DNA from: an uncultured Bacteroidota bacterium | GTDB lineage: Bacteria > Bacteroidota > Bacteroidia > 2-12-FULL-35-15 | Direction: 5' to 3' | DNA: 47,636 nucleotides | Assembly (NCBI GenBank): GCA_903911435.1 | Contig: CAIWDF010000275.1 | Span: forward strand, 1-47,636 | In this document: positions 17,232-47,636 of the stretch, in pieces | Position numbering within the stretch: the first letter of the stretch is position 1 | How the letters are laid out: each line of letters starts with the position of its first letter | Translations under genes and position numbers: made by a program | Notes under the pieces: generated by a model | Told to the model about the DNA's origin: nothing | Seen by the model: only the letters and a program-made list of their open reading frames with translations | Database searches by the model: none

Positions 17232-17441
17232 TGATTTACTGCCGAGCCTAGCCAATTTATGTATAAAGGCGGGCTCGGCAGTAATTTGCCTAGCCTCGGC
17301 AGTAATTTGCCTAGCCACGGCAGTAATTTGCTTAGCCTCGGCAGTAATTTGCTTAGCCATGGCAGTAATTTGCCTAGCCTCGGCAGTAATTTGCCAAGCC
17401 TCGGCAGTAATTTGGCTAGCCTCGGCAGTAAATCACCCAGA
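17232..17441. repeat. 21-bp tandem array A2 with inverted flanking unit
   Basis: Eight direct units begin at 17274 and repeat every 21 bases without a gap to about 17441, each centred on CTCGGCAGTAATTTG. Just to the left lies one unit in the opposite orientation: TGATTTACTGCCGAG at 17232-17246 is the exact complement of the last unit's CTCGGCAGTAAATCA at 17421-17435. The same inverted unit can also pair with the first direct unit through a perfect 13-bp stem (17236-17248 with 17272-17284; loop 23 bases). Unit differences fall mostly at the CTAGC spacer. Frames on both strands are open but I see no start or signal making them genes. Confidence 0.95.
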
Positions 17442-28227: not shown

Positions 28228-28479
28228 GATGATGCCGAAATCGTTTTGGATGATGCCGAAGTCATTTCGGATGATGCCGAAATCATTTTGGATGATGCCG
28301 AAATCGTTTTGGATGATGCCGAAATCGTTTTGGATAATGCCGAAATCGTTTTGGATGATGCCGAAATCATTTTGGATGATGCCGAAATCATTTTGGATGA
28401 TGCCGAAGTCGTTTTGGATGATGCCGAAATCATTTTGGATGATGCCGAAGTCATTTTGGATGATGCCAAAGCCATTTTT
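28228..28479. repeat. 21-bp tandem array A3
   Basis: Twelve uninterrupted 21-bp units starting at 28228, each with GATGATGCCGAAATC and a T-rich end. Differences between units are almost confined to two A/G sites three bases apart. In the frame starting at 28229 (repeat MMPKSFW) both sites are synonymous, and in the frame starting at 28204 (repeat DDAEIVL) they only exchange Ile and Val. A 12-bp direct repeat AAGCCATTTTTG lies at each edge (28213-28224 and 28469-28480). No start signal, signal peptide or conserved terminal domain supports translation. Confidence 0.95.
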
Positions 28480-28549
28480 GCTTCAACTTGCTTTAATTAA
28501 AGGTGACAATTGTTCTATTCTTCCTTTGAAAGGACCCAAAAAGTCAGCG

Positions 28550-28675
28550 CTTCAAACCGAAATTACATCACTTCAAACATAAATTACATGGCTTCAAATC
28601 GAAATGACACGGCTTCAAACCGAAATTACACGGCTTCAAATCGAAATGACATGGCTTCAAACCGAAACGACAGCA
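28550..28675. repeat. 21-bp tandem array A4
   Basis: Six 21-bp units starting at 28550 with CTTCAAACCGAAAT, partly alternating with a TCGAAATGAC variant, giving hints of a 42-bp superperiod. The heptamer CCGAAAT occupies the middle of the unit at the same offset as in A3, 70 bases away, while the outer parts differ. Confidence 0.92.
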
Positions 28676-42317: not shown

Positions 42318-45300
42318 TTATCTTACTACTGTCAATGTCCCATTTTCCTTGACCGTTTGACCGGTGCAATAGGTTACAGAAAGGGCATATGTAAACGAAT
42401 TGTCATTCATTCCTAATCCATGCCAGGTTCCATCCCAGCCACTATCGAACGAGGTTGTTTCAAACACCTTCTCTCCTACTCTATCAAATATTTTTAGATC
42501 GAAATAATCAATTCCTCTTCCATGAACATACAAGACATCATTATTTCCATCGCCATTGGGAGACAATCCCGTTGGCATATAATAGGTATAAACATCTGTT
42601 ACTACCACTATCGTAGTATCAGAATCGGTACAACCATTGATATCCGTATAGGTTACATAATAAGGCTGAGTAACGGTTGGTGACATGGTGGCGGTTTGAC
42701 AGGTATTACAATTCACTGCATCATTAGGCCCCCATAGATAAGCTGTACCAGCTGGCATCGCTGTCAACTCTGTACTTTCGCAAGAATTAATAGTGGTAAT
42801 ACCGGTGATGGTGACTGGTATTGGCTCAACCACATCGATATAAAAATTCCGTGTTAAAGTGTCTGTACTTGTAGAATTAGAAACAATGAGGGTTACAAAA
42901 TGACTTCCTAACGTGGAGTAGCAAACATTGATTGGACCACTTGATGTGGAAGTAGATGGTGTTCCATCTTGAAATACCCATTGCCAATTGGTTGGATTTC
43001 CTGTAGACAAATCGGTGAAGGTAACACAACCACTTTGGCACAATACTGTATCGTCAGCAACAAAATTTGGAACGATGTTACAATTATTTACCGTTACTGT
43101 AGAAAGTGCAGAGCCTGTGCATCCACCTGCACCTATACCAGTAATGGTATAAGTAGTGGTAACTGCAGGAGATGCTGTAGCGGTTGATGTACCTGTTGAT
43201 GTTGCTCCCGCTGACCAAGTATAGCTTATGGCACCTGCCGCTGTTAATGTGGCAGCTTGTCCTTGACAAATAGCAGGCGAGTTTATGGTAACAATTGGAT
43301 TCGAATGGATGATAATCGTTGAAGTATCAGTTACTGCAGCACAACTGGCTGTGGCAGCAATAGTATTAGTTACCAAATAAGTTCCTTGCGAACTTGACAA
43401 CAACGATACAACACCAGTACTACCATTGATACTTAATCCAACAGTTGATGTAAATGATCCTGCCGTGCCACCTCCACTAAAAACAGGTGAAGGATTGGTT
43501 GCGTTCTGACAATAGGACATTGGTGTATAACTGAACGTAGCTACTGGCGATGCTACTATTTGAATGGTTGCAGTATTCACTACTACCGGACAAGCACCTG
43601 AAGCACCAATGGTATTGGTAACCGTATACGTATTGGCAGTGCTTAAACCAAGGTTCACAGCACCTGTTGTAGCTATGATACTTAATCCTAAAGGGGTTGA
43701 TGTAAATGTACCAGCTACACTACCAAGAGTAAATGCAGGCACAGGGTTGGTTCCGTTCTGACAATATGGACTGCCTGTATACGAGAAAGCTCCAGTTGAG
43801 GCAGCATCAATGACAATGGTGGTGGTATCTGTAGCCGGAGGACAAACACCTGTAGATGTAACATTGTTTGTTATCACATAGGTTCCTGGAATACTAGTAA
43901 GCAAATTAACAACACCTGTGGTAGTGCTCACAAATGTAAGACCTGCTGGTGAAGCAGAATAGTTACCTGCTGTGCCTCCTCCACTATAAGTTGGTGATGG
44001 ATTAGTACCATTCTGACAATAAGCATAAGAAGGATAACTAAATGTTGCAACGGGAGCTGCACTGATGGTAACAGCTACTGTCATAGTACTAATACAATTT
44101 GGGCCTGGTGTGGTATACGTGATATTATACGGACCACCTGCAGTACTTGCTGCCAAATTAATTTCTCCTGTACTTGCGCTCACAAACACCAAACCTGGGG
44201 TTGATGAAAACGTCCCACCAGGAGTTCCCGTGATGGTTGGAATTGGATTTGTACCTGATTGACAATAGTCGTTTGCTGAATAACTAAAGGAAGAATCTTC
44301 TGCAACATTGATATCAATAATAGATGTTGCGGTTACAGACGGACATCCACCAAGTGCTGCTATAAAATTGGTAACGGTATAACTTCCGGGGGTACTTGCT
44401 GATAAGTCGACTTGACCAGCTGCACCTCCACCAACAAATACTAAACCTGTTGTTGAACTAAATGTCCCTGCTACTCCACCTACACTGTAAGTTGGCGAAG
44501 GGTCGCTACCATCAGTACAATATGGATTTCCTGTATAACTAAACGAAGCAATAGGTGAATTGACTACATCTAAAGAAGCCGATGAAGTGGCTGCACAAGG
44601 CCCTGCTGTGGTGTACGTAATGACATAACTATTAATGGTACTTGCAGCTATGTTAATCAACCCTGTGGTGGCATTGGAGAAAACTAGTCCTGCAGGGGTG
44701 GCTGTAAAAGTTCCTCCAGCTGTTCCTGTAATGTTTGGGCTTGGATTGGTTCCTGCTTGGCAATAACTAGGCGAAGCAAAACTAAATGATGCATCTTGTG
44801 CAGCATTTATAACAATAGTAGATGTGGATGTGGAAGCCGAACATGCTCCCGATGCAGCAATGGTATTGGTAACGGTATAAGTTCCTGCTGTACTTGCCAA
44901 TAGGTTCACTTCGCCAGTAGCAGTGTTCACGAACACTAAACCTGGAGTGGAACTAAATGTACCAGCTATACCTCCTCCTGTAAACGTTGGTAATGGATTG
45001 GTTGCCGAAGAACAATAAGGCGTTCCTGCATAATTAAATGTTCCAACAGGTGCAGTAGTGATGCCAACCGTAACTGAAGAAGACGATGAACAAGCACCTG
45101 AAGTGGTGTAGGTGACGGTATAGGTATTAAGGGTGCTACCTACTAAATTAATTAATCCCGAGGAGGAGTTGATACTTAAGCCTGCAGGGGTAGATGTGAA
45201 CGTACCTCCTGCAACACCAGTAACGGTAGGCAGTGGATTAGTACCCGACTGGCAATAAGCTGCTGCAGAATAGTTGAACCCAGCATTAGCCAATGCACTT

Positions 45301-47096
45301 ATAACAAAGGTAGCAGTGGATGAAGAACCCAAACAACCTCCCGAAGCTGCTACCGTATTGGTAACAGTATATGTTCCGGGTGTGCTAGCCCCTATGTTCA
45401 CCACACCGGTGGCAGCATTTACAAACACTAAGCCTACTGGAGTAGCAGTAAAATTACCTGCAATACCTCCTCCTGTGAAGGTTGGTGAAGGATTGGCTGC
45501 TGTGGAACAATAGGGCGAACCAGAATAATTAAAGGTAGAAACTGCCGAGCCTGTGATGGTTACGTTTACAGATGTTGAACTAGGACAAGTGCCTGTGAAC
45601 AATGAATAAGTAATGCTAAACGTTCCTGCCGAACTTGCAGCTAAATTGATTACTCCGGTGGCCGCATTTATGGATAAGCCTGCGGGGGTTGCCGAAAACG
45701 AACCTCCTGCAACACCCGTAATGGTAGGTGTTTGATTTCCTGCTCCTGTACAATAAGCAGATGATGAATATGAAAAATTGGAATTCTGAGCAACTGTTAT
45801 TGAAATGTTTGATGTAGCAGTAACCTGAGGACAACCTCCTGTTGCTGCTACTGTATTGGTAACTGTAAAATTAGTACCTGTGGCACTTGCTGCTAAGTTA
45901 ACTTCTCCTGTTGATGAATTAGCAAATACCAGCCCAGCAGGACTAGATGTGAACACTCCTGCGGTTCCTGCACCGATAAAAATAGGGAAAGGATTAAAAT
46001 CGTTTTGGCAATAAGGGGGAATAAAAGTAAATGCTGCCGAAGAATTGGTGATGGTGATTGGGGGGCTTATGTTGCTTATTAATGCGGGGTTGGTACTAAC
46101 AATTTGAATTAAAAACCCCGAACTTGTTGCAGAAAAGCATGGCAATGTCAACGAAATGGTTCCTGATGAGGTTCCTCCAATCATTGAGGTAGATGTTGGA
46201 ACAGCAAAACTTCCTGTCCCATCCGAAACTTGCGCAGTGAATGTGTTACCGGCATTAAATACACCTGATATCGTAAACGGAACATTTATGGTAGAACAAG
46301 CACAAAATGGGCCTCCAACGATTGCACCTAAGGTGATGCTATTGGCCGAAGGAGTGGCAAGGGTAATATCGTCAATGGCTACCGAAGGGTCGGTGCCTAC
46401 TCCATCATCATTGTTTTTCCAACGGAAACCAATTTTTACACTTGCCACATTATTACAAGCTACTGGCAATGCCACCGAATACGCTGTCCACAGACCTTGT
46501 GGCGAACAAGTGCCAAATGAAGTGATGGCAGGTGTGGATAACAAAGTCCAAGAGGTACCATTATTGATAGAATATTCCACTGTCATAAAATCGCTTGCAG
46601 CTGTACCGTGCAGCATGTAGTTAAATGAAAGGGTAATATTGGTATGACCTGTACAGTTAATGGTTGGCGATTGTGCGCGTGTATCGGTGAGTACACAGAT
46701 TCCCAAACCACACATTCCGCCTGCATCATAAGATGCTCCTTCATCGAGAACAAATCCATCATTAGCACCTATGTGTAAGGTTTGATTATTCAGTCCCGAA
46801 TTGCCAACGTCTAAACATCCGTCTCCACAATTACCCACACCCATGCCTGCTTCGGTAGAACTAACAAACCAAGCGTTGGCTTGTGCATTATTGGTTCCGG
46901 GCGAACCGATGGTCCATGCTCCATTGGAGCCCATGTAAGCAGCAGCACTTTGCCCTTGAAGACAAGCACCTGTACCAAACGATTCTTGCCAAAAAACTTG
47001 CGATTGTGCACCAACAGACACCATCATGAATAGCACGATGGCTATGGCTTTGCCTTTAGTGTAAGTAATATAATTAGTAAAAGTAATTTTTCTCAT
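42318..47096 (-). CDS. giant repeat adhesin with type B T9SS sorting domain
   Basis: 1592 residues. A signal segment (AIAIVLFMMVSVGAQSQ) and an N-terminal module of about 230 residues precede eleven Ig-like repeats of about 80 residues (FxYxxxxYC...TGGxAGTF...GxVNLxAST...TVTNTxAAxGxC), each with two cysteines. For repeats 1 to 8 two types alternate, one with TNTVAASGGC, the other with ITYTT, as a 160-residue superunit; repeats 9 to 11 are all of the first type. A PKD-like domain follows (CVTFTDLSTGNPTNWQW), another Ig-like part, and a type B sorting domain (MPTGLSPNGDGNNDVLYV). It is paired with the PorP/SprF gene, as in SprB/SprF, suggesting a surface adhesin. Confidence 0.93.
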   Translation of the reverse strand: MRKITFTNYITYTKGKAIAIVLFMMVSVGAQSQVFWQESFGTGACLQGQSAAAYMGSNGAWTIGSPGTNNAQANAWFVSSTEAGMGVGNCGDGCLDVGNSGLNNQTLHIGANDGFVLDEGASYDAGGMCGLGICVLTDTRAQSPTINCTGHTNITLSFNYMLHGTAASDFMTVEYSINNGTSWTLLSTPAITSFGTCSPQGLWTAYSVALPVACNNVASVKIGFRWKNNDDGVGTDPSVAIDDITLATPSANSITLGAIVGGPFCACSTINVPFTISGVFNAGNTFTAQVSDGTGSFAVPTSTSMIGGTSSGTISLTLPCFSATSSGFLIQIVSTNPALISNISPPITITNSSAAFTFIPPYCQNDFNPFPIFIGAGTAGVFTSSPAGLVFANSSTGEVNLAASATGTNFTVTNTVAATGGCPQVTATSNISITVAQNSNFSYSSSAYCTGAGNQTPTITGVAGGSFSATPAGLSINAATGVINLAASSAGTFSITYSLFTGTCPSSTSVNVTITGSAVSTFNYSGSPYCSTAANPSPTFTGGGIAGNFTATPVGLVFVNAATGVVNIGASTPGTYTVTNTVAASGGCLGSSSTATFVISALANAGFNYSAAAYCQSGTNPLPTVTGVAGGTFTSTPAGLSINSSSGLINLVGSTLNTYTVTYTTSGACSSSSSVTVGITTAPVGTFNYAGTPYCSSATNPLPTFTGGGIAGTFSSTPGLVFVNTATGEVNLLASTAGTYTVTNTIAASGACSASTSTSTIVINAAQDASFSFASPSYCQAGTNPSPNITGTAGGTFTATPAGLVFSNATTGLINIAASTINSYVITYTTAGPCAATSSASLDVVNSPIASFSYTGNPYCTDGSDPSPTYSVGGVAGTFSSTTGLVFVGGGAAGQVDLSASTPGSYTVTNFIAALGGCPSVTATSIIDINVAEDSSFSYSANDYCQSGTNPIPTITGTPGGTFSSTPGLVFVSASTGEINLAASTAGGPYNITYTTPGPNCISTMTVAVTISAAPVATFSYPSYAYCQNGTNPSPTYSGGGTAGNYSASPAGLTFVSTTTGVVNLLTSIPGTYVITNNVTSTGVCPPATDTTTIVIDAASTGAFSYTGSPYCQNGTNPVPAFTLGSVAGTFTSTPLGLSIIATTGAVNLGLSTANTYTVTNTIGASGACPVVVNTATIQIVASPVATFSYTPMSYCQNATNPSPVFSGGGTAGSFTSTVGLSINGSTGVVSLLSSSQGTYLVTNTIAATASCAAVTDTSTIIIHSNPIVTINSPAICQGQAATLTAAGAISYTWSAGATSTGTSTATASPAVTTTYTITGIGAGGCTGSALSTVTVNNCNIVPNFVADDTVLCQSGCVTFTDLSTGNPTNWQWVFQDGTPSTSTSSGPINVCYSTLGSHFVTLIVSNSTSTDTLTRNFYIDVVEPIPVTITGITTINSCESTELTAMPAGTAYLWGPNDAVNCNTCQTATMSPTVTQPYYVTYTDINGCTDSDTTIVVVTDVYTYYMPTGLSPNGDGNNDVLYVHGRGIDYFDLKIFDRVGEKVFETTSFDSGWDGTWHGLGMNDNSFTYALSVTYCTGQTVKENGTLTVVR

Positions 47097-47150
47097 GTGT
47101 ACTGGTATTTAATAAAACTACATCCCTATTCGTTGCGAAATAAAGGAGAC

Positions 47151-47158
47151 CAAAAATA
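47151..47158 (-). promoter_or_regulatory. -7 promoter element TATTTTTG
   Basis: On the minus strand, 54 bases before the ATG of the 1592-residue adhesin gene. It would drive the adhesin and PorP/SprF pair. Confidence 0.5.
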
Positions 47159-47200
47159 AGAACAATTTTTTACATTTGGTGAAGTAATGTTAAAATAAAT

Positions 47201-47225
47201 AAAGCCCCGCTTTTGGCAGGGCTTT
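47201..47225 (-). terminator. hairpin terminator after the sorting-domain remnant
   Basis: AAAGCCCCGC pairs with GCAGGGCTTT with one mismatch, followed on the minus strand by a T-rich run. Its presence shows the truncated gene was once the end of a transcript. Confidence 0.75.
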
Positions 47226-47249
47226 ATACTCGGTATAAAAAATCATAGA

Positions 47250-47465
47250 TTATTGTTTCACCATCTTTTTTGTATCAATTATTTTAACAACCGCTACCAA
47301 GTTATAAGAATACATACCATTGCTTAAATCTTGGGTAAAAACATTTAATTGCCCTTGACCTTTTTGAGTAAGTTCAAGCGATTGAATTAATTTACCTTCT
47401 ACGTCATAAAACAGTATTTGAGCTTTGCCAATAGGTAGAAAGTTTTGACCAACTAGTAAAGCGAC
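47250..47465 (-). pseudogene. remnant of a type A T9SS sorting-domain gene
   Basis: An open stretch of 71 codons ending in TAA at 47250. It is not listed as a gene by length, but reads as a type A sorting domain: FLPIGKAQILFYDVEGKLIQ, then DLSNGMYSYNLVAVV and KKMVKQ at the end. Immediately upstream, a TGA at 47466-47468 lies in the same frame, and further TGA codons recur through array A5. No suitable start is found in between, so the C-terminal domain is cut from its protein. Array A5 begins within it. The rest of the gene, if any, lies beyond the window. Confidence 0.75.
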
Positions 47466-47636
47466 TCAACCAACTTGCAGAATGACTTTACCAACTGGTA
47501 GAGCGACTCAACCAACAGGTAGAACGACTCAATCAACTAGTAGAATGACTTTACCAACTGGTAGAGTGACTCAACCAACAAGTAGAATGACTTTACCAAC
47601 TGGTAGAGTGACTCAACCAACAGGTAGAATGACTCA
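47428..47636. repeat. 21-bp tandem array A5 (runs off window edge)
   Basis: Nine units in steps of 21 from 47449, core CCAACTGGTAGAGTGACTC, the last one cut by the edge. Two end types, one with ACTCAA and one with ACTTTA, mostly alternate, giving an imperfect 42-bp superperiod. A diverged tenth unit in exact phase lies at 47428-47448 (14 of 20 bases equal the last unit), and this one is part of the sorting-domain reading frame. On the minus strand the ACTCAA units put TGA stops in that frame. Confidence 0.95.

Follow-up and report, generated by a model that had tools for sequence, protein, structure and literature searches.

A 21-bp minisatellite array abutting a secreted-protein gene stump in an uncultured Bacteroidota genome probably derives from another locus

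Tandem arrays of 21-bp units lie in many spacers of an uncultured Bacteroidota lineage. Here we report on one of them (A5), which was probably copied from another locus of the same genome, joined to the stump of a gene and homogenised since. The window, contig C275 at its full length of 47,636 nt, belongs to a draft genome of 4.19 Mb in 312 contigs (G000), whose closest named matches are uncultured Bacteroidetes MAGs, of freshwater origin to judge by their isolate names. Viewed alone, A5 is one more pseudogene stump beside a minisatellite. At its far edge, two arrays with different units have one flank and two old units in common, a rare visible step in how arrays that are unrelated in sequence and conserved in period could multiply in a genome.

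The relevant features are listed below; positions refer to the window unless another contig or locus is named.
42318..47096, minus strand: gene for a 1592-aa secreted protein with a CHU_C (type B T9SS) signal, adjoining the DUF4290 gene in G012 and G014
47097..47249, no strand: resident intergenic spacer, homologous by alignment to the spacer between the DUF4290 gene and this giant gene in G014
47201..47225, minus strand: terminator-like hairpin AAAGCCCTGCCAAAAGCGGGGCTTT, present in the G014 spacer too
47250..47429, minus strand: 3' stump of a gene for a secreted protein, made up of the final 59 codons of a T9SS type A C-terminal domain and the stop codon TAA, with no start codon
47422..47431, minus strand: overlap zone of array and gene, TTGGCAAAGC, compatible with the array unit (TTGGTAAAGT in AAA-type units) as well as with the gene, where it encodes GKA
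47427..47447, no strand: diverged, array-like, in-phase edge unit GCCAATAGGTAGAAAGTTTTG, reading QNFLPIG on the minus strand
47448..47636, no strand: minisatellite array A5 of nine 21-bp units ACCAACTGGTAGAATGACTCA, cut by the contig end and resumed at C33:1-210
C33:571-1242, minus strand: DUF4290 gene, beyond A5
1-206, 17274-17431, 28228-28478 and 28549-28672: other arrays of the window, period 21 (also 42/63), with mutually unrelated units
L004:17702-17847, and L039, L040, L045, L055 and others: further period-21 arrays with mutually unrelated units

Within G000, arrays of the A5 type occur at only two places, the right end of C275 and the left end of C33. On C33, ten units (1-210) are followed by decay over two more unit lengths and then by about 340 bp of noncoding DNA, including a dispersed hairpin repeat, up to the DUF4290 gene (76% and 75% identical to those of the two nearest congeners, G012 and G014). 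In both congeners this gene lies right next to the orthologue of the 1592-aa gene and has the same orientation, with spacers of 164 and 172 bp. Their adjacency fixes the order of C275 and C33, and a join of C275, array and C33 is nearly certain from synteny. The two are separate contigs in the assembly without a physical join, which we count against our explanation. The spacer between the two genes contains neither array nor gene tail in G012 and G014, which shows that the block of array and tail is specific to G000 or else was lost in both. No outgroup with the same gene order polarises the difference as insertion or deletion, and this, too, counts against our explanation. Between the stop codon of the tail and the 1592-aa gene, most of the sequence can be aligned with the G014 spacer (score 80; maximum 41 in 300 shuffles). 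By alignment, flank, array and tail have the DUF4290 gene on one side and an otherwise resident spacer on the other, and the putative insertion site is bounded by the DUF4290 gene and the 1592-aa T9SS gene.

A different 21-bp array in G015 (L084:7916-8144) starts at most about 10 bases from the DUF4290 stop codon, at a site that a terminator-like hairpin occupies in the relatives G014, G043 and G004. A dispersed intergenic hairpin repeat with the core GTTGGTTTTTTCACCAACA was found at L004:382-452 and at many sites in G000, G004, G005, G012, G014, G015 and G043, with many copies in every congener searched.

A5 consists of head-to-tail, noncoding 21-bp units without spacers in an intergenic position, as is characteristic of bacterial minisatellites (unit range 10-100 bp), and includes partial 42/63-bp higher-order units. 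A reading of its units as coding heptads was ruled out by in-frame TAG and TGA stops; the sampled arrays are also mostly intergenic. A preliminary description of the window had correctly recognised the array, its in-phase diverged first unit (given as 47428-47448, off by one) and TGA codons in the frame of the tail, which are present in six of the nine units in the window. The edge unit agrees with array units at 13-14 of 21 positions (at least 14 are reached by 0.05% of random 21-mers), and CTTTCTACCTATTGGCAAAGC scores 5.7 bits against the array profile, compared with 1.1 bits for the best of 117 random 195-bp stretches.

The same description took QNFLPIG for the beginning of a type A sorting domain. 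The TIGR04183 match, however, starts only at residue 7 (profile position 19 of 72), which is the last codon of the edge unit, and aligned intact close relatives read FLPxxVGKAQ, with two residues more between LP and KAQ than the FLPIGKAQ of the window. Because the domain match starts at that codon and the relatives have two extra residues, QNFLPI appears to be better explained as a decayed array unit than as a domain start. If the edge unit is simply an array unit, its perfect phase needs no explanation. Decayed in-phase edge units with at least 12 matches in 21 occur at 46% of 62 array edges in the clade (1.3% of random 21-mers), and the edge unit is best seen as an ordinary decayed array edge, the sequence being array rather than gene up to its last codon. 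We count against our explanation that the next 21 bp within the gene (KAQILFY) match array units at 12 of 21 positions (P about 0.013), and also that the edge unit gives FLP in the frame of the gene while the FLP of intact genes is two codons further out; if the array was copied in, the FLP of the edge unit is a coincidence. The overlap TTGGCAAAGC, in which about 9-10 bp (TTGGYAAAG) are shared, is likely the junction, over which the gene-side end of A5 would have been joined to the 3' stump of an S74-chaperone/T9SS type A gene.

The stump lies in a 65-codon open stretch (47253-47447, minus strand) that is closed by TAA and encodes the tail of a type A sorting domain (TIGR04183/PF18962). It is 65-75% identical to the C-terminal domains of intact congener proteins, which are mostly 500-1100 aa long; the one that was scanned against Pfam, from G004, combines an S74 chaperone domain with a T9SS type A sorting domain. 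Compared with such intact proteins, the stump is missing profile positions 1-18, all other parts of the protein and a start codon. There is no open frame upstream, and TGA codons of the array close the frame, the nearest of them 7 codons upstream of Q1. The tail scores below threshold with TIGR04183 (22.1 bits; curated cut-off 23) and with PF18962 (24.1; threshold 27), covers only profile positions 19-72 instead of forming a complete domain at the C-terminus of a longer ORF, and deviates from near-invariant columns at A33T, D48V and G49V. G000 retains no intact gene of this tail subtype, and a search of the genome for the missing N-terminal part with the 890-aa protein of an intact relative returned only head-repeat and other proteins. 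We read the tail as a decaying pseudogene remnant of an S74/T9SS type A surface-protein gene, presumably without function. That the array cuts off a secretion-tail gene, as had been proposed, agrees with the direct abutment and with the missing start codon and upstream frame. It does not follow that the array was the cause: G007 and G016 have orphan or decayed tails of this family with no 21-bp array beside them, so truncations of this kind do not depend on an array.

The opposite edge of A5 leads to a second locus. Over 134 bp, C33:205-338 aligns at 80% identity with C277:20466-20601, where a 21-bp array of 17 units has its edge; the unit there, GTGTACTTGGAGTCGTTCCAA, is unlike that of A5. 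The alignment spans two decayed edge units (beginning GGTGGTCGAAAAATCATT and AGTACTCGYAAAATCATT), beyond which the array bodies (TGAGTCATTCTACCAGTTGGT in A5) diverge. The oldest visible units of A5 are at this C33 edge, opposite the gene, and are common to the C277 locus; the gene side, held to make A5 the only array with a possible origin in view, does not have that distinction. When 94 flanks were compared with one another, dispersed repeats were found, and only one flank was shared up to the array edge. The closest homologue of the C277 gene in G014 (49% identity) has a 21-bp array on the same side at a similar distance from the start codon, and the unit of that array agrees with the shared edge unit in 24 of 29 bp, a score that none of 500 shuffles reached. 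Position and unit of this G014 array are moderate evidence that, of the two arrays in G000, the one on C277 is older, A5 being a copy with a body homogenised afterwards. Against this, the G014 array was outscored in its match to the C277 edge by one of 50 other array regions.

Further similarities were noted around these loci. C216:1-72 of G000 starts with a 24-codon stretch that is 96% identical to the end of the array-adjoining C277 gene and is perhaps another 3' gene fragment, and the G000 array L048:4923-5174 shares the stretch AAAATCATTTTTGGTGYAC with the C277 array edge. At an unrelated place in G015, a 21-bp array has a unit resembling that of A5 (consensus 15/21, single units up to 18/21), which may be due to chance or to the same process.

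The course of events that we consider probable combines these observations. Array and stump are not in this spacer in the two nearest congeners, and the C33-side flank of A5 and its first two decayed units are common to the C277 array with its different body. The 5' part of the gene would have been lost when a deletion or rejoining linked a point within an array unit to a point within the gene. Slippage or unequal exchange would then have homogenised the A5 body to a unit of its own, while decayed older units persisted at either edge.

The array could instead have been born in the gene, a 21-bp coding piece (FLP..IGKAQ) being duplicated by slippage and amplified until the gene was destroyed from within. 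We consider this unlikely. It would account for an edge unit that is in phase and array-like to 4-5 bp past the gene junction and for the resemblance of the gene's next 21 bp to the units, and in the last 600 bp of the intact G014 and G015 genes the unit profile finds its best match at this very site. In six of the eight intact relatives, however, the best match lies elsewhere, and the intact genes of relatives have no 21-bp periodicity, contrary to the expectation that orthologues would retain a seed here. Growth from within would call for one more event, a deletion of 6 bp that sets the window apart from every intact relative. The domain match reaches no further than the last codon of the edge unit, arrays in noncoding DNA often have edge units of this sort, and the opposite edge of A5 recurs at an array locus without such a gene. 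The N-terminal gene fragment that had been predicted beyond the array is absent on C33, where no open frame or secreted-protein homologue ends at that side. The preliminary description had left the choice between growth out of a coding segment and insertion; with no fragment on C33, no periodicity in the relatives and the oldest units at the C33 edge, arrival from elsewhere followed by joining fits better, growth being the weaker alternative and an origin within the gene unsupported. The result corrects the idea of coding segments as seeds for 21-bp arrays.

Array and truncation may also have had separate histories, an ordinary deletion having left the 3' stump before the array arrived or spread up to it. 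The array-free tails of G007 and G016 are compatible with this, as is the presence of arrays in many spacers whatever their neighbours; but array and stump abut without a spacer and share the 9-10 bp described above, which is easier to understand if the joining itself made the junction, and we regard separate events as rather improbable. An error of assembly or binning, with the junction misassembled across repeats, comes to mind in a draft of 312 contigs in which both contigs end within the array. It is very improbable, since stump, terminator and resident spacer are continuous and in correct synteny, the array type is confined to these two contig ends in the genome, and the junction lies 189 bp inside the contig. 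Copying from another locus thus remains our preferred explanation.

The closest described element is BrickBuilt of Porphyromonas gingivalis, an intergenic 23-nt MITE/minisatellite with variable copy number and conserved 'leader' and 'tail' flanks at several loci (PMC4596501). A5 resembles it in phylum, intergenic position and a unit of about two helical turns, and the same flank recurs at more than one array locus (134 bp, 80%, C33 and C277), though in two copies only. BrickBuilt copies have one unit and terminal inverted repeats, whereas the arrays on C33 and C277 share a flank and differ in their bodies (TGAGTCATTCTACCAGTTGGT and GTGTACTTGGAGTCGTTCCAA), and most G000 arrays are unrelated in sequence. 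Inspection by eye revealed no terminal inverted repeat where the shared flank ends, and with the gene stump at the opposite end of A5, no pair can form. Intergenic tandem repeats in lake Planctomycetota and bacterial minisatellites (VNTR) are noncoding arrays thought to expand and contract by slippage (PMC9426551). As with these, contigs end within arrays in G000 (several contig ends fall within 21-bp arrays); in contrast to them, units of unrelated sequence keep largely to one period (21, also 42 and 63) in one clade of a Bacteroidota genus. A literature search returned BrickBuilt and general tandem-repeat papers and nothing on 21-bp arrays in this group; a plasmid collection gave no match, and Rfam only sub-threshold chance matches.

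In sampled stretches of genomes, 24 period-21 arrays, some of them short, were counted in 315 kb of G000, where periods of 42 and 63 occur too, and 13 in 400 kb of G015. Arrays of this kind are also present in G004, G014 and G043, which brings the close congeners that carry them to at least four; about 114 kb of sequence from five more distant congeners contained none. A unit common to all arrays was considered and rejected: pairwise comparison of 34 unit consensi gave at most a slight excess of similarity over shuffles. It is conceivable, if doubtful, that the arrays of the clade spread by the copying of a flank and a few old units to a new spacer, each copy then being rapidly homogenised to a new unit of its own. 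Such spread would keep the period (two helical turns) and not the sequence, would yield hundreds of seemingly unrelated arrays per genome, and would occasionally swallow neighbouring genes. Another array of the window (A2, 17232-17441) is flanked by an inverted repeat, TGATTTACTGCCGAGCC ... GGCTCGGCAGTAAATCA, which might represent the ends of a mobile unit.
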